Made by a program: the position numbers and the translations under genes. DNA of 48,221 bases, taken from contig JAPLFO010000165.1 of assembly GCA_026390635.1 (NCBI GenBank), positions 1 through 48,221 on the forward strand, read 5' to 3'. Positions 1,374 through 30,496 of the stretch are shown in pieces; positions within the stretch are counted from its first letter, which is position 1; each line of letters begins with the position of its first letter. The notes below the pieces were generated by a model that was not told the origin of the DNA, searched no databases, and saw only the letters and a program-made list of their open reading frames with translations. The DNA is from Ignavibacteriales bacterium (GTDB lineage: Bacteria; Bacteroidota; Ignavibacteria; UBA10030; UBA8401).

Positions 1374-2831
1374 TCAGACGATTGCATCGATGGACGATAT
1401 CTGTCGGCCGTTTTTGCGGTCAAACATCATCATACTCGCCCTATCGATCCCCCACACTGCGATCGAAAATATCAATCCCGGATACATCGGTTCAATTCCA
1501 AGGAAGTACACCCCCCCCTGCATCTGACCATTGACCATCCAGGCCGACGAGATCAGCCACCCCCCCAGCATAGCTGCGAACGCAAACCGGGACCGCATTC
1601 CCAACGCAGGAAAATAGCTGGCCATCAGCGGTACGAGAAGACCAGGAATGATGGCTGTCCCAATCGAGTACCACAGCTTCACGACAGACGGAATCAGTAT
1701 TGCCAGCAACACGGCGAAAACTCCTGTAATGACCAATCCATACTGGGACCATCGCCTCATTGCCAGATTCTTCTCAGCTGCTTCACGCCCTTCCATCAGA
1801 CGCCCGACCACGTCGTTTCCAATCGTCGTCCCGCCGATGAATGTAAGACTGCTCAGTGTGGACATGATCGTCGCGAGCATGCCAATGTAAAAAATGGATT
1901 TTGCAACAGCCGGCAGCGCTGCTTCTGCAAGCATCGGATATGAGAACATCGGTTCCCGTAAATCAGGCAGGGCTGCACGGGCGTATAGTCCGGCGGCGCT
2001 GGTCAAAAAATCAAAGACCAGCCAGAATATGATCGAAATCAGTATTCCCCGTTTGGCAGTTCTTCCATCCTTTGCGGCTGCACATCGTTGATAGAATGCC
2101 GGATCGACAAGCGTCCACAATGCAATAAAAAACCAGACGAGAATAAATTGCATGGAATTTCCTCCATGCCAGGTGAGATGCAATGCCGGGAGATGAGAAC
2201 GCAGGTACTCGATGCCGCCGAAATGCGAGTAGGCGAAGACCACGACAACTGCAAACCCCAGAAACATCAGAACAAACTCCAGCACATTCGCATGGACATC
2301 GGAGCGGAATCCGCCGGCATAGAGATAGCAGATGGTGGCAAAAGTACTGAGCAGCACGGCCGGCACAAGATCGATCCCGAAGATGAGTTCAACGAGTACC
2401 CCGAGCATCAGGACGTAGGCGGCGGGAGTGACGAGTACGAACGTCAGCAACGCGCCGAGCAGAGATGTCGGGCGTCCGTAGGTCCGGTACAGTTGTTCCG
2501 GAACAGAGCCCGCATTTCCTTCCCGGGCTTTCCTGGCGAGAAAAAGTGCCACGATACGTGCAAAAAAATAGTATGGAATTCCAAAGACAACCCAGTTTGA
2601 GATTCCATACCGATAGGAATATTCACCGACACCGAGAATACCGCCATACCATGTCGACACCAGCGTCGCAACAAACACGGGCAGCGTGAGTGACCTACCG
2701 GCGAGAAGGTATTCTTCCGTACTGCTCTTGTGATGCCGGCGAGCCCGAAAGCCCACCCACATCACGCCGGCAAAATAGAGCAGAATCAGCAGGATGTCGA
2801 TAGCCGAAAAATGGACAACGGGCATCTGCAT
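1374..2831 (-). CDS. Sodium:solute symporter (SSS family), likely thiamine-related
   Basis: A 485-residue polytopic membrane protein of the SSS/PanF family: about 13 hydrophobic helices starting at residue 10 (IDILLILLYFAGVMWVG), with the family's N-terminal region EEYLLAGRSLTLPVFVATL followed by STWYGGILGVGEYSYRYG. It should couple Na+ re-entry to solute uptake across the inner membrane. It starts 6 bases after the stop of the thiamine pyrophosphokinase gene and so belongs to the TPP-riboswitch operon. Its substrate is therefore probably thiamine or a thiamine precursor; in several Bacteroidota the same slot is filled by PnuT, and SSS members under TPP control (ThiV) have been predicted elsewhere. 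Family assignment is secure; the substrate is inference from operon position. Confidence 0.88.
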   Translation of the reverse strand: MQMPVVHFSAIDILLILLYFAGVMWVGFRARRHHKSSTEEYLLAGRSLTLPVFVATLVSTWYGGILGVGEYSYRYGISNWVVFGIPYYFFARIVALFLARKAREGNAGSVPEQLYRTYGRPTSLLGALLTFVLVTPAAYVLMLGVLVELIFGIDLVPAVLLSTFATICYLYAGGFRSDVHANVLEFVLMFLGFAVVVVFAYSHFGGIEYLRSHLPALHLTWHGGNSMQFILVWFFIALWTLVDPAFYQRCAAAKDGRTAKRGILISIIFWLVFDFLTSAAGLYARAALPDLREPMFSYPMLAEAALPAVAKSIFYIGMLATIMSTLSSLTFIGGTTIGNDVVGRLMEGREAAEKNLAMRRWSQYGLVITGVFAVLLAILIPSVVKLWYSIGTAIIPGLLVPLMASYFPALGMRSRFAFAAMLGGWLISSAWMVNGQMQGGVYFLGIEPMYPGLIFSIAVWGIDRASMMMFDRKNGRQISSIDAIV

Positions 2832-2837
2832 GATTTG

Positions 2838-3503
2838 TCAGCACCTCCGGCGTTTCTTTGTTCTCACAAAGATCAGCAAGTGTCCGGTGCGGTAGTTGAT
2901 CTGGACGGTCTCTTCGATCGCTTCATTGCTGACTCCTTCGCGCACTCCAGGCTCCAGCGTTTCATTGCGGAGCGGATACTTCAGACCGCGCGTCGTAATA
3001 CCGCCGCAGCGGCCAAGAGGAAGAAGCGAAATCGTTGTGTCTCTGGCGACAATCAGCGTCGATCGGCGGGGAAGCGGGAAGATCTCGCCATCATCATCTA
3101 TGAACCGGATGTTCAGCCGCTTCTGATACTTTGCGAGGATGCTCAAATTGGCGAAGGCATGATCGGTTCTCTTCCCGGTGGCGCCCAGAACAGTTGCCCA
3201 TCGAAATTTCTTCTTCAGTAGATAGTCGAGGGCCTTTTCCAAATCGGTGCTTTCCTGTTCATCAATTTGTACCAGCGGGACACGGGCGAACTTCGTTCGC
3301 GTTTGCGGCAACACCGAATCACAATCACCGATAATCACATCCGGACGAATGCCCAGCCGCATCGCAACATTGGCGCCACCATCCGCACACACGATGAATG
3401 GCCGGCCCGAAGTACACTGCGCCGCCACCCGCTGCGACGGCGGATTTCCATTGCAAATCACCAATGCAAAGGGCCTGTCATATTTCTTCTTCAAAGACAT
3501 CAT
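2838..3503 (-). CDS. Thiamine pyrophosphokinase
   Basis: This 221-residue protein transfers pyrophosphate from ATP to thiamine to make thiamine pyrophosphate. Diagnostic features are VCADGGANVAMRLGIRPD and VIIGDCDSV in the first third, the DEQESTDLEKALDYLL segment that binds nucleotide and Mg2+, and GATGKRTDHAFANL in the catalytic domain; the C-terminal third is the all-beta thiamine-binding domain. Length is typical for the bacterial enzyme. Two adjacent ATGs occur at the start, with AAGGGG just upstream, so the true start may be 3500. It is the middle gene of the riboswitch-controlled operon, 78 bases after the TonB-dependent receptor and 6 bases before the symporter, which fits activation of imported thiamine. 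Confidence 0.93.
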   Translation of the reverse strand: MMSLKKKYDRPFALVICNGNPPSQRVAAQCTSGRPFIVCADGGANVAMRLGIRPDVIIGDCDSVLPQTRTKFARVPLVQIDEQESTDLEKALDYLLKKKFRWATVLGATGKRTDHAFANLSILAKYQKRLNIRFIDDDGEIFPLPRRSTLIVARDTTISLLPLGRCGGITTRGLKYPLRNETLEPGVREGVSNEAIEETVQINYRTGHLLIFVRTKKRRRC

Positions 3504-3581
3504 GAATCCCCTTCAAAAATTGTTCTCTTTCACTCCTGGGACCCGTCGCCGATCGAACGTCTCGGCTTCTTGCACCGGCGG

Positions 3582-5831
3582 TTACAACTGTGCGGTAATC
3601 CCAAAAAGATAGTTGCGCTCTGCAGCCGGGAAAAAGGCACTCCCCTCTCCCGTTTGCATATACAGAGTATTCAACACATTTCGAATTTCCGCCCGCACGG
3701 TGATTTCGCAATCCCAGAGACGGGGCAGCCTGTAGAGCGATTCGAAATTGACGACGGTAAATGCATCATTTTGATTCGCCCCATCCTTGAAGTTGTCAGT
3801 ATAAAAAGGACCAACGTATTTTGCCGAAATGTATGCAGACACGCCAACGCCCTGATACCCGAAACGGAAATTCCCCATCACATCGGGAAATCCTGCGATC
3901 GGGTTGCCATCCAGCTTTACGGCATGAGAGTACACTGATCCCCCGACACTGCTATCCTGCTCCACAATTGCGAACTTCACAATGCGGTTCAGCGACAGGG
4001 AAACATTTCCGCTCACCGACAATGAATACGGCAATTGGACGGAACCGTCAAGCTCGCATCCGATATGGCGTGTCCGATCGGCATTACCGTAGACGGGATT
4101 TCCAAAGATGTCCACTTGTCCGCTCTTGACGAGTTCATGAGTGAATTCCATCCAATAGACATTTACAGTGACAGTGGCTTCCTCCGTCCGATAACCGGCA
4201 CCCAGTTCAACGTCGATCAATTCTTCCGGCGTAACGAGCGGCGATGCGTAATCGTACACCGGCGCACCGTTTTGAAAACCGGAAATTGTGAACTGCGGCG
4301 TTGCGCCGGGATCCCAATAGGCGTCTTCTGCGGAGTACAGATTTCTCAGCCGCGGCTCGCGCGAGGTGTAGGCAAATGAACAATAGATATTCCATGCATC
4401 TGTGAGATTATAGTTTGCGCCTATCCTTGGATTGACAAACCAGTATGGAACACTGAAAGAATGATGGAGAAATTGTTCGTTCTGTATTTGATATTGATCG
4501 TATGCCAGCTGCATGCTTCCCATCAGTGACAACTCTTCCGTCGGCCGATACGTCTCCGTTGCATAGAGCGATGCCATGTGTTTGATCCCGTCGTACTGAT
4601 AGGTCCGATAATCGGGATTAAAATTTGGAGGAAGGCCTTCCGCCGTGGAAAGCTTTCCCCAATGCGAACCATGGTGGTAGCGGTACTCCCCGCCGATAGT
4701 AAGCTCACCTTTGTCATGCTGCAGTTCATACCGCGGCAGCCATCCCCATTGAACGAGGTCGACGCCGGCTCGAAACATCGCATTGGCAATGGATGGTGTC
4801 AGTGAAAATCCATGGATGCTGTCGATGCGAAATTCCGCCGCACCCGCCCATGAGGCATCATAGTCGTACCATCCATGGCTGTCAAAGTAGAAGAAGGTGT
4901 TATTTAATTTTTGCCGATCGCCGACCTTCCATTCATTCAGAATTTCATAATGAGGCTGATTGAACTCTTCACGCTCCTGCGGACGCCGCAGCATTCCATA
5001 CGCCGTCAGGTTCAGTCGGCGCAATTTCTTGTCATTGTTGTACGATTTGGGAAGACCGTCGTACACCAGCTCGTCGCGCAGCGGACCGCCGTACAGATGA
5101 ATGCGCGTCGTGGAATTCTCTCCCAACAACAGCGCACCAAGAAAATACGCGCCTGTTTCGATCGACGACCGAATGCGATAGCCGTTGGATTGGATTTTGC
5201 CCAGCCGGCCATAGAACATATATTTTTTGTCGATCAGTCCGGAATTGAATGATGCAGAGAGCTTCCGCATGGTCATGGGAAGGCTTTGACTGCTGTCGCC
5301 ATACTCCTGAAATCCGAACATTGCTTCGAATTTTGCATACGGCTTCGGAGTGAACGGATTGGTGACAATGTTGACCGATCCACCGATGGCGGGCGGACCA
5401 TAAAACGCGCTTCCCGCTCCCCGCTGCACTTGTACGCTGGCGGCGCTCGCCAGAAGGTCGGGAAAATCGATCCAATAGACATTATGATCTTCCGGATCGT
5501 TTTGCGGGATTCCATTCACCATCACGGACAATCGCCGTTGATCAAAGCCGCGAAGAAACACGTACGTATATCCCACACCGTTCCCGCCGTCGGAATATGA
5601 AAGCATCGATGGAAGCTGCGACAGCAGCACCGGCACATCCTGCATAGAGTATTGTTCCTGAATCAACCCTTTGCTCAGATTGGTGAACGTGACCGGCGTC
5701 TCTCGCTCCTTTGCCTGCGTTGCGGTGACAAGGACCGGTGAGAAATAGTACCGGACACTGTCGTTGACCGCCACATCCTGGCCGTGCGCAATTACTGCGG
5801 CAGCAAAGAACAACATTATCAATTTCTTCAT
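3582..5831 (-). CDS. TonB-dependent outer-membrane receptor, predicted thiamine importer
   Basis: A 749-residue TonB-dependent receptor. A signal peptide (MKKLIMLFFAAAVIAHG) is followed by a TonB-box-like segment (VLVTATQAKERE), the plug domain (VPVLLSQLPSM, VFLRGFDQRRLSVMVNGIP, QVQRGAGSAFYGPPAIGGSV) and a barrel of roughly 600 residues ending NYLFGITAQL. It should bring a scarce ligand across the outer membrane at the expense of the TonB-ExbBD energy system; no TonB genes are in this window. The first gene after a TPP riboswitch, it is most likely a thiamine or thiamine-phosphate receptor. GAGG lies 7 bases before the ATG. Receptor class is certain; ligand is inferred from regulation and from the downstream kinase. 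Confidence 0.93.
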   Translation of the reverse strand: MKKLIMLFFAAAVIAHGQDVAVNDSVRYYFSPVLVTATQAKERETPVTFTNLSKGLIQEQYSMQDVPVLLSQLPSMLSYSDGGNGVGYTYVFLRGFDQRRLSVMVNGIPQNDPEDHNVYWIDFPDLLASAASVQVQRGAGSAFYGPPAIGGSVNIVTNPFTPKPYAKFEAMFGFQEYGDSSQSLPMTMRKLSASFNSGLIDKKYMFYGRLGKIQSNGYRIRSSIETGAYFLGALLLGENSTTRIHLYGGPLRDELVYDGLPKSYNNDKKLRRLNLTAYGMLRRPQEREEFNQPHYEILNEWKVGDRQKLNNTFFYFDSHGWYDYDASWAGAAEFRIDSIHGFSLTPSIANAMFRAGVDLVQWGWLPRYELQHDKGELTIGGEYRYHHGSHWGKLSTAEGLPPNFNPDYRTYQYDGIKHMASLYATETYRPTEELSLMGSMQLAYDQYQIQNEQFLHHSFSVPYWFVNPRIGANYNLTDAWNIYCSFAYTSREPRLRNLYSAEDAYWDPGATPQFTISGFQNGAPVYDYASPLVTPEELIDVELGAGYRTEEATVTVNVYWMEFTHELVKSGQVDIFGNPVYGNADRTRHIGCELDGSVQLPYSLSVSGNVSLSLNRIVKFAIVEQDSSVGGSVYSHAVKLDGNPIAGFPDVMGNFRFGYQGVGVSAYISAKYVGPFYTDNFKDGANQNDAFTVVNFESLYRLPRLWDCEITVRAEIRNVLNTLYMQTGEGSAFFPAAERNYLFGITAQL

Positions 5832-5892
5832 ACATTTGCCTCAACGCTGCATGGATTCGTCTTGCGACGAAGCCGGGCTCACCCCGGAAATG

Positions 5893-5932
5893 AAAAAGCC
5901 GTCACTGAAATGGACAACGTCAGTAACGGCTT
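5893..5932 (-). terminator. Intrinsic terminator forming the riboswitch expression platform
   Basis: On the minus strand the aptamer is followed 13 bases later by a hairpin with arms AGCCGTTACTGA and TCAGTGACGGCT and then TTTTT. Its place between the TPP aptamer and the receptor start codon means that TPP binding probably ends transcription early. Confidence 0.85.
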
Positions 5933-5945
5933 CAAAATTCGCGGT

Positions 5946-6031
5946 ATCGTTTTCCTACGCTGGCATAATCCAGATCAGGTTCGTAGGGTATGATCTCAGA
6001 TCCGCCTTCACAGCGGATCACCCCTAACGAT
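5946..6031 (-). promoter_or_regulatory. TPP riboswitch (THI element)
   Basis: Read on the minus strand, the segment carries the highly conserved aptamer blocks: GGGGTG near the 5' end, CTGAGATCATACCC, GAACCTGATCTGG and ATGCCAGCGTAGG, closed by a P1 helix between ATCGTT (6026-6031) and AACGAT (5946-5951). A variable P3 hairpin GATCCGC/GCGGATC lies between the first two blocks. It precedes the TonB receptor, thiamine pyrophosphokinase and symporter genes and should switch them off when TPP is plentiful. Confidence 0.96.
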
Positions 6032-6069
6032 GAAAAAGTACATGAAAGAACAGTGACGACTTGTGGTAC

Positions 6070-6098
6070 AATATATTCCCCACGAGGGTAAAAGTCAA
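6070..6098 (-). promoter_or_regulatory. Promoter of the thiamine operon
   Basis: Minus strand TTGACT (6093-6098) and TATATT (6070-6075) are separated by exactly 17 bases, a good sigma70-like match, and lie about 40 bases before the first base of the TPP aptamer. Start of transcription would fall near 6062. Confidence 0.65.
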
Positions 6099-6313: not shown

Positions 6314-6709
6314 ATGAAAGAACAACAAATCTCAGTTGTCGCCGGACTTATCATCGAAGACGGAAAAATTCTCGTCTGCCAGCGCAAGCAAACAGCGCGC
6401 TATCCGCTGCAATGGGAGTTTCCAGGGGGCAAACTGGAATCAGGAGAGACCATTGCGGAATGTCTTCGGAGAGAACTGCGCGAGGAGCTCGGCATCGACG
6501 CCCTCATCGGAAAAGAATTCCATCATCACGCGTGGACATATCCTGATTCGGGAACATTTTCTGTCCACTACTATTTTGTCGATAGTTATGCGGGAGCTCC
6601 GGTCAACAATGTGTTCGAGCAAATTCGGTGGGTGCCGATCGCAGATCTGCCTGCCATCGACATGCTGGAAGGCAATCGCGAGGTGATCATACTTCTTACC
6701 CGGCCCTGA
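6314..6709 (+). CDS. Nudix hydrolase, MutT-type 8-oxo-dGTP diphosphatase
   Basis: A 131-residue single-domain Nudix protein. The Nudix box is complete: GGKLESGETIAECLRREL followed by REELGI, matching GX5EX7REUXEEXGU, and the N-terminal VVAGLIIEDGKILVCQRK and QWEFPGGK are typical of MutT-like pool sanitisers that hydrolyse 8-oxo-dGTP. Size equals E. coli MutT. The stop is one base before the mutY start, so the two are almost certainly co-transcribed and probably translationally coupled; together with the Ogg2 gene that follows they cover all three branches of oxidised-guanine defence. Substrate is inferred from subfamily features and operon partners; other (deoxy)nucleotides remain possible. 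Confidence 0.88.
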   Translation: MKEQQISVVAGLIIEDGKILVCQRKQTARYPLQWEFPGGKLESGETIAECLRRELREELGIDALIGKEFHHHAWTYPDSGTFSVHYYFVDSYAGAPVNNVFEQIRWVPIADLPAIDMLEGNREVIILLTRP

Positions 6710-6710
6710 C

Positions 6711-7637
6711 ATGACTCCCGCTTCCCCCGCCGCAAAACGCACTATAGATTTTCGGAACCATCACCACTTGTTGCTCGAGTGGTATGCCTCCCATCGCCGT
6801 GACCTGCCATGGCGTCGAACGCGGAGCCCCTATCGCATCCTGATTTCCGAGATCATGCTGCAGCAGACACAGGTTGCGCGGGTGACACTGTACTATAGAG
6901 ACTGGCTCCGCCTCTTTCCATCCTTTCGTGCATTGGCTGCCGCGTCAAAGCGGGATGTTCTGCAAGCGTGGTCCGGACTCGGGTACAACAGCCGAGCGTT
7001 GCGTCTTCAATCGCTGGCCCGAATTGTTGCCGATCAACAGCGCGGGCGCCTGCCGGCAGACACAATCCTCCTGCAACAATTACCGGGGATTGGAAAATAC
7101 ACAGCCCATGCACTCGGCTGTTTTGCCTTCGGCCTTTCTCTGCCGGTGGTGGATGTGAACGCAAGACGCATTCTCACGAGGCTTTTTTCGAAAGTCACTG
7201 CGGCCGACGAAATGCTGGATGAAAAGTGCGCCTGGGAAATCGCTGCTTCAATTCTGCCTCGCGACGCGGCCTACGATTGGAATCAGGCACTCATGGATCT
7301 CGGCGCCGGGACATGTACTGCCGTCAATCCGGTTTGCGATGCCTGCCCGTTTACAGACCGATGCTCGTCATCACATCTGCCCGTGCTGCGCCTTCGATCC
7401 GTGCGCACGCCCAGAAAGGAGCCTTCCTTCCACGGTGTCCCGCGAAGAATTGTTCGCGGCAATATTCTAAAGATCCTTCATGCACAGAGTCGCGAGGTCG
7501 CAGAACTTCGCTCGTCACTTTCTGTCCGCTTGCGCCGGCATGAACTGCTCGCTGTGCTCTCCGCAATGCAGCGCGACGGTTTGATTGAAGTAAGAAAACT
7601 GCGCGGACGAATTCTCGTTTCAATTGCGAGCTCATGA
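6711..7637 (+). CDS. mutY: A/G-specific adenine DNA glycosylase with atypical C-terminus
   Basis: A 308-residue HhH-GPD glycosylase that removes adenine mispaired with 8-oxoguanine. Visible features: SEIMLQQTQVARV with the catalytic Glu, the helix-hairpin-helix LPGIGKYTAHALG, the catalytic Asp in PVVDVNARRIL, and the [4Fe-4S] loop CTAVNPVCDACPFTDRC (C-x6-C-x2-C-x5-C). Classical MutY is about 350 residues and ends in a Nudix-like 8-oxoG recognition domain; here the last 80 residues lack it and read like a small winged-helix (GNILKILHAQ..RRHELLAVLSAMQRDGLIEVRKLRG). The stop overlaps the next gene's ATG by four bases. Enzyme identity is firm; how this form reads 8-oxoG is open. Confidence 0.93.
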   Translation: MTPASPAAKRTIDFRNHHHLLLEWYASHRRDLPWRRTRSPYRILISEIMLQQTQVARVTLYYRDWLRLFPSFRALAAASKRDVLQAWSGLGYNSRALRLQSLARIVADQQRGRLPADTILLQQLPGIGKYTAHALGCFAFGLSLPVVDVNARRILTRLFSKVTAADEMLDEKCAWEIAASILPRDAAYDWNQALMDLGAGTCTAVNPVCDACPFTDRCSSSHLPVLRLRSVRTPRKEPSFHGVPRRIVRGNILKILHAQSREVAELRSSLSVRLRRHELLAVLSAMQRDGLIEVRKLRGRILVSIASS

Positions 7638-10064: not shown

Positions 10065-10116
10065 CATTTCCCCTCGAGTGCGGACACCTCGGCTCCGGTT
10101 GGCGAGCAGCGTCGAG

Positions 10117-10650
10117 TCAGGGTTCCCGAGCGGAGTCGAGGGACGGTTCCCGAGCGGAGTCGAGGGACGGTTCCCGAGCGGAGTCGAGGGACGGTTCCCG
10201 AGCGGAGTCGAGGGACGCTCGGTGACTGTATTGTGCTTTCCAGAACGCACGGTAGAAAAGAACGCTCCCCAGAATCAAGGAGATGCCGATCATCTCATAA
10301 GCACTCGCAAGGTATTCTTTCGGGAGAAATGAGTGCCTTAACACGAACCCAAACGCCATCATAAAAGCAATGATAAGGTATCCGCGCGGCGCCTGAAAGG
10401 CGAACACCGATACTCTGCCCGCCAGACCGCCGATGCGTTTGATATTCTTCTGCGCAATAGGAACAAAGGCAAAATGGCTCATGGGAATGGCCGCACTGAT
10501 TCCCACAAGGACAAGCTCGAGCCCGGGGCGTTTCTGCACAGCGCTGAGCCAGAGGATCGCCAGCCGGCACAACATCACTCCCACCCCGTTCCACAGAATT
10601 GCCGCGATAAGATACAGCCATCGATTTGGTACCGTGACGGGTTTTATCAT
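10117..10650 (-). CDS. Small polytopic membrane protein with repeat-encoded tail
   Basis: A 177-residue protein with three to four hydrophobic segments (YLIAAILWNGVGVMLCRL, LVLVGISAAIPMSHFAFVPI, GYLIIAFMMAFGFVL, YEMIGISLILGSVLFYRAF). I do not recognise the family. The C-terminus after about residue 143 is not natural-looking sequence: it is the octapeptide SLDSAREP four times over, encoded by a 24-bp tandem DNA repeat that runs to the stop codon. The original stop was presumably overrun when the repeat landed there. The gene lies 53 bases downstream of the FAD/Fe-S oxidoreductase stop on the same strand and may be co-transcribed with it. A role cannot be given. Confidence 0.7.
   Translation of the reverse strand: MIKPVTVPNRWLYLIAAILWNGVGVMLCRLAILWLSAVQKRPGLELVLVGISAAIPMSHFAFVPIAQKNIKRIGGLAGRVSVFAFQAPRGYLIIAFMMAFGFVLRHSFLPKEYLASAYEMIGISLILGSVLFYRAFWKAQYSHRASLDSAREPSLDSAREPSLDSAREPSLDSAREP
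10121..10216. repeat. Four exact copies of a 24-bp tandem repeat
   Basis: Units at 10121-10144, 10145-10168, 10169-10192 and 10193-10216 each begin GGTTCCCGAGCGGAG and end GAGGGAC. No mismatches are seen among them. The length of 24 is a multiple of three, so each unit adds eight in-frame residues to the minus-strand membrane protein. The CGAGCGGAGTCGAGG core resembles part of the dispersed repeats elsewhere in the window. Confidence 0.95.
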
Positions 10651-30353: not shown

Positions 30354-30401
30354 CAAAACAATTTCACCTCGGCGTCCGATCACGGTCGCCAAGCGGCACC
30401 G

Positions 30402-30496
30402 CGGTCATCGAGCGAAGCCGCGGTCATCGAGCGAAGCCGCGGTCATCGAGCGAAGCCGCGGTCATCGAGCGAAGCCGCGGTCATCGAGCGAAGCCG
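30402..30496. repeat. Five copies of a 19-bp tandem repeat
   Basis: CGGTCATCGAGCGAAGCCG occurs five times without mismatch (30402, 30421, 30440, 30459, 30478). The array is closed on the right by GATGACCG, the inverse of the unit's CGGTCATC. It fills the gap between the outer-membrane gene and the RsbW-like gene. Confidence 0.95.

Follow-up and report, generated by a model that had tools for sequence, protein, structure and literature searches.

A predicted SSS-family thiamine importer that alternates with PnuT in riboswitch-controlled operons of the Bacteroidota

The operon described here couples a TPP riboswitch to a TonB-dependent receptor, a thiamine pyrophosphokinase (TPK) and a symporter of the SSS family, the last of which occupies a position that is held in related operons by the transporter PnuT. 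It lies in a window of 48,221 nucleotides (the whole stretch of DNA that was analysed; contig JAPLFO010000165.1, assembly GCA_026390635.1) from an Ignavibacteriales bacterium. We consider it very likely that this gene set serves thiamine uptake and activation in an auxotroph, with the symporter acting as a Na+-driven thiamine importer in the role of PnuT. More broadly, a bacterial SSS subfamily is likely to import intact thiamine with sodium and to have been swapped repeatedly, in place, with PnuT within otherwise unchanged riboswitch–receptor–kinase operons of the Bacteroidota and allied phyla, such that a genome has one or the other, never both.

Anatomy and probable control of the operon

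The operon spans window positions 6098 to 1374 on the minus strand and combines a promoter-like site, a TPP riboswitch, an intrinsic terminator and three genes:

6070..6098, minus strand: candidate sigma70-like promoter, TTGACT-17-TATATT, with a 10/12 match to the consensus, some 35 nt ahead of the aptamer
5935..6035, minus strand: aptamer of a TPP (THI-element) riboswitch; RF00059, 71.1 bits, E 4e-12
about 5892..5933, minus strand: intrinsic terminator hairpin, the probable expression platform (OFF switch); -20.6 kcal/mol, followed by a U run
3582..5831, minus strand: TonB-dependent outer-membrane receptor, 749 aa; Pfam plug and barrel
2838..3503, minus strand: thiamine pyrophosphokinase (TPK), 221 aa; TIGR01378, 162.5 bits
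1374..2831, minus strand: SSS-family (PF00474) symporter, 485 aa, the final gene of the operon; ThiV-like, and predicted to import thiamine with Na+

The aptamer, terminator, receptor, TPK and SSS transporter were each recovered on this strand at the place that the preliminary description had given them. The flanking genes, namely an incomplete gene at 1-1167 beyond the symporter and Nudix and MutY-like genes at 6314-7637 upstream of the operon, are encoded on the opposite strand, and the ends of the operon are thus clear; the symporter starts 6 nt past the TPK stop codon. Elsewhere in the window, two short near-perfect or perfect tandem arrays are found at 10096-10217 (24 bp x 5.1) and 30399-30496 (19 bp x 5.2), with units of the GAGCGGAGTCGAGGGA and GAGCGAAG types.

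The aptamer, which had been read from the letters of the sequence, is borne out by the covariance model: its score lies well over the gathering score of 54.3 bits and the match is full length (model positions 1-105 of 105). It is the only TPP riboswitch detected in the source genome, and nearly every relative likewise has one. In the aptamers of several genomes of the family and order (L080-L094), the ACCC strand is separated from the ACCTGATC core by an extra hairpin, which pushes the Rfam scores below the cut-off; the aptamer of the window is without this hairpin.

The terminator, similarly proposed beforehand, is real: the hairpin is more stable than expected (z -6.3), none of 200 shuffled sequences was as stable, and the U run stands at its end. 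A consensus terminator scan overlooked it because its loop is long. Of the 39 genomes tested, 25 have a comparable GCCGTT-type hairpin after the aptamer. Pairing of the 3' strand of aptamer stem P1 with the 5' arm of the terminator would explain the switching, and is above chance in 8 of 25 genomes; in the window it amounts to only 4 bp (AACG/CGTT), no better than chance. The anatomy of the element points to a probable OFF switch. As to the sigma70-like promoter of the preliminary description, the consensus match is present, but it is a match only, one of 11 such sites in the region where 4.8 are expected; the candidate is weak when taken alone and is no evidence by itself.

The receptor has both the PF07715 plug and the PF00593 beta-barrel above cut-off, and a homologue of it follows the aptamer in each of the 38 relatives examined; its genomic context makes it the probable functional counterpart of OMthi/Omr1. 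The TPK, with its TPK_catalytic and TPK_B1_binding domains both present, scores more than twice the equivalog cut-off (76.4 bits) and is the sole TPK detected in the source genome. Two nearly complete genomes, G027 (L074) and G037 (L094), keep the riboswitch and the symporter, together with a divergent receptor, but no TPK was detected in either the operon or the genome; uptake of TPP itself, or a different kinase, may serve these organisms instead.

We propose the following mechanism. When TPP is scarce, the aptamer would be empty and the transcript would pass the terminator, allowing the production of the receptor, kinase and symporter. Thiamine would then cross the outer membrane through the receptor, powered by TonB, and the inner membrane through the symporter, which takes the place that PnuT has elsewhere and would use Na+. 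Finally, the TPK would convert thiamine to TPP, the binding of which to the aptamer would favour termination.

Exchange of the symporter with PnuT

Among relatives of the order, the riboswitch–receptor–TPK arrangement is conserved while two kinds of gene occupy the third position. An orthologue of the symporter is found in 24 of the 41 genomes of the order; in 22 of these (the window included) it is downstream of a riboswitch and receptor, and in the other two it stands beside a TPK at a contig break. A PnuT, i.e., a PF04973 protein of 190-200 aa, is the third gene in 16 of the 41. No genome of the 41 combines the symporter with PnuT, and in just one, which is 89% complete, neither was seen. 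The same pattern extends to a sample of 395 genomes from the phylum: 115 encode the symporter family and 157 a PnuC/PnuT-family (PF04973) protein, with no genome encoding both as against 46 expected (Fisher p 1.8e-32, kinship ignored).

Since this p value ignores kinship, the receptor tree matters more. On that tree the label of the third slot changes at least 4 times, and the receptor of the window falls in a clade with full support whose 12 members include 10 from operons with PnuT. The exchange can be seen within a single genus in the pair G024 and G029: their receptors are 72% and their kinases 68% identical, and they share a convergent gene further downstream, yet one has PnuT as its third gene where the other has the symporter. 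In a quick tree of the symporters, those of the order group together and mostly follow families; the direction that this tree suggests is of a symporter that is probably old in the order, with PnuT as the more frequent newcomer. The mutual exclusion is partly inherited and speaks to an interchangeable role rather than to substrate chemistry.

The linkage of the symporter to thiamine genes was evaluated in its 80 closest homologues from named genomes, a set that partly overlaps the genomes of the order. The closest named relatives come from assemblies of Ignavibacteria, Bacteroidota and Kryptonia, which makes an Ignavibacteria-like member of the Bacteroidota the likely source of the window. A TPP riboswitch precedes 57 of the 80 on the same strand, at a distance of 1.6-5.5 kb, and a TPK-like gene is located just upstream of 69; most of the remaining homologues have too little upstream sequence. 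The company of these symporters is hence overwhelmingly that of TPP riboswitches and TPKs, and not of pantothenate or proline genes, a point that the preliminary description had singled out for comparison. The association extends to KSB1, Marinimicrobia and Armatimonadetes, the last with riboswitch, TPK and symporter but no match to the receptor.

Farther out in the phylum, the symporters that have no riboswitch linked to them are mostly of two sets, TPK–symporter pairs and a separate subfamily. Within the close clade the linkage is thus strong, but it does not hold for every member of the symporter family. The separate subfamily (L216, L218, L219, L220, L221, L223, L225 and L235) has the motif ATWYGN, ATWYGS or ATWYGA, and its genes adjoin a probable CDP-alcohol phosphatidyltransferase gene, so named from its sequence, rather than a TPK or TPP riboswitch. 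A search of plasmid records for related symporters returned generic SSS proteins of about 21-28% identity, and the five neighbourhoods examined show no thiamine gene by annotation.

Identity and probable substrate of the symporter

The symporter matches PF00474 with 103 bits and its predicted fold is also of the SSS type. The preliminary description had termed it a PanF-like sodium symporter: its membership in the SSS superfamily and a weak similarity to PanF and PutP stand, whereas a specific likeness to PanF does not, with scores far below the equivalog cut-offs of both (TIGR02119, 91.2 against 328 bits; TIGR02121, 49.8 against 515.5 bits). PanF itself, a sodium:pantothenate symporter, belongs to the same superfamily. 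The source genome has no PF04973 (PnuC-like) protein. Residues S324 and T325 of the symporter align with S340 and T341 of a PutP, the pair that binds Na+ in PutP. In the course of these comparisons, an SSS gene of P. mirabilis considered as SiaT was rejected, as it looks like PutP. Thiamine is the predicted substrate, and the predicted coupling is to Na+.

The substrate can be approached via the metabolic capacity of the organism. The source genome is a draft of 3.98 Mb in 202 contigs, 96.2% complete, and a gene could be missed in it; our statements of absence are all drawn from draft genomes. A search of the 41 genomes of the order recovered no ThiC, and a genuine ThiE from just 2 of them, with none detected in the source genome. 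ThiG is represented in the latter by a partial match of 21.8 bits, below the cut-off. Across the order, the PF05690 (ThiG) matches are short, partial, placed inside longer frames and within a few bits of the cut-off, and we judge them to be cross-matches to other TIM barrels. With no ThiC and no ThiE detected in the source genome and only this weak ThiG match, the bacterium is probably a thiamine auxotroph that uses intact thiamine, not precursors. The earlier reading of the operon as one of salvage is thereby supported, and given these absences, salvage is very probably obligatory.

This bears directly on the alternative in which HMP, the pyrimidine precursor, or some other degradation product is what the symporter brings in, with thiamine being finished in the cell. 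A precedent is provided by ThiV of SAR11, which belongs to the SSS proteins, is controlled by a TPP riboswitch and is the likely HMP importer (PMC11452348), and within the order G032 (L071) and G022 (L073) have thiM, thiE and a ThiL-like gene within the operon itself, between the riboswitch and the receptor, with no detectable ThiC. But the source genome and nearly all its relatives are without ThiC and without ThiE, the enzyme that joins HMP to the thiazole; imported HMP would thus be unusable, whereas thiamine together with the TPK would suffice. Moreover, the TPK of the operon acts on thiamine, and the PnuT that replaces the symporter moves thiamine in a heterologous host, as stated in PMC5613172 with reference to its reference 19. 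We hence regard import of HMP as very unlikely; the metabolic context favours thiamine as the substrate.

A different concern arises from the structural relationships of the symporter. Its closest solved relatives by sequence profile are the CHT1-type choline transporters (E 1e-28), and its predicted structure (mean pLDDT 82, but poor over positions 46-62) aligns with CHT1/SLC5A7 over 443 residues (Z 33.5, rmsd 4.6, 17% identity). Choline, like the thiamine proposed here, is a quaternary nitrogen cation, although CHT1/SLC5A7 has no link to thiamine genes. The symporter might accordingly carry quaternary cations broadly, with thiamine as one of several, or else phosphorylated thiamine (TMP or TPP), a form that G027 and G037, which retain it without a detected TPK, may take up. 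The adjacency of TPK and symporter in nearly all the operons points instead to free thiamine, and we rate this alternative as very unlikely. A hitch-hiking symporter with an unrelated function, e.g., pantothenate or proline uptake, that ends the operon by chance would be in keeping with the weak PanF/PutP similarity, but is extremely improbable in light of the scores far under both cut-offs, the linkage to TPK or TPP riboswitches over many families and several phyla, and the exclusion with PnuT. Import of intact thiamine with Na+ is the reading that we retain.

Relationship to known thiamine transport systems

In gut Bacteroidota, operons of the form TPP riboswitch–OMthi–pnuT–tnr3 are known, and PnuT and OMthi support growth at low thiamine (PMC5613172); the preliminary description was correct in naming PnuT as the usual partner in this phylum. 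Those operons have in common with the present one a TPP riboswitch, a TonB-dependent receptor, a TPP-making enzyme and a single inner-membrane importer; they differ in that an SSS symporter here stands in for PnuT, and in that no de novo thiamine pathway was detected in the genome.

That a TPP riboswitch may govern an SSS symporter is itself an old idea. According to later papers that cite it (PMC2211319, PMC4260697), a PanF-like SSS protein under such control was predicted and named ThiV in 2002; ThiV/SSSP is counted among the B1 transporters (PMC6593275) and the SAR11 version is taken to be an HMP importer (PMC11452348). By sequence and position, the symporter of the window is likewise an SSS protein under TPP riboswitch control, and we liken it to ThiV/SSSP by family and control. 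Tyr78, Asp139 and Phe254 (SiaT numbering) are the published signature residues of ThiV. The SAR11 protein works with a precursor-using pathway, whereas the operon here pairs the symporter with a TonB-dependent receptor and a TPK. What is new is the recurrent one-for-one exchange with PnuT, along with the metabolic argument for intact thiamine, as opposed to HMP, as the substrate; a partial literature search found no description of the PnuT/SSS alternation or of this argument. The missing ThiE indicates which form of the vitamin the symporter must carry, a question that had been left open for ThiV.

These distinctions have practical consequences, in that thiamine uptake by organisms that do not synthesize it decides dependencies in the communities of sediment, groundwater and wastewater. 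Under a generic annotation, the symporter would be named a sodium:solute, proline or pantothenate symporter, and many genomes could thus be scored as being without a thiamine importer. A simple and testable rule for naming it is offered by its strict alternation with PnuT.

A eukaryotic counterpart is seen in the fungal SSS protein Dur31, which is a thiamine transporter by genetics, its deletion strains being resistant to pyrithiamine, and which, like the symporter, is under a TPP riboswitch in many species (PMC5997356). It differs in being eukaryotic and in having a riboswitch that acts on splicing. In some yeasts Dur31 is displaced by Thi7, a parallel to the exchange of the bacterial symporter with PnuT.
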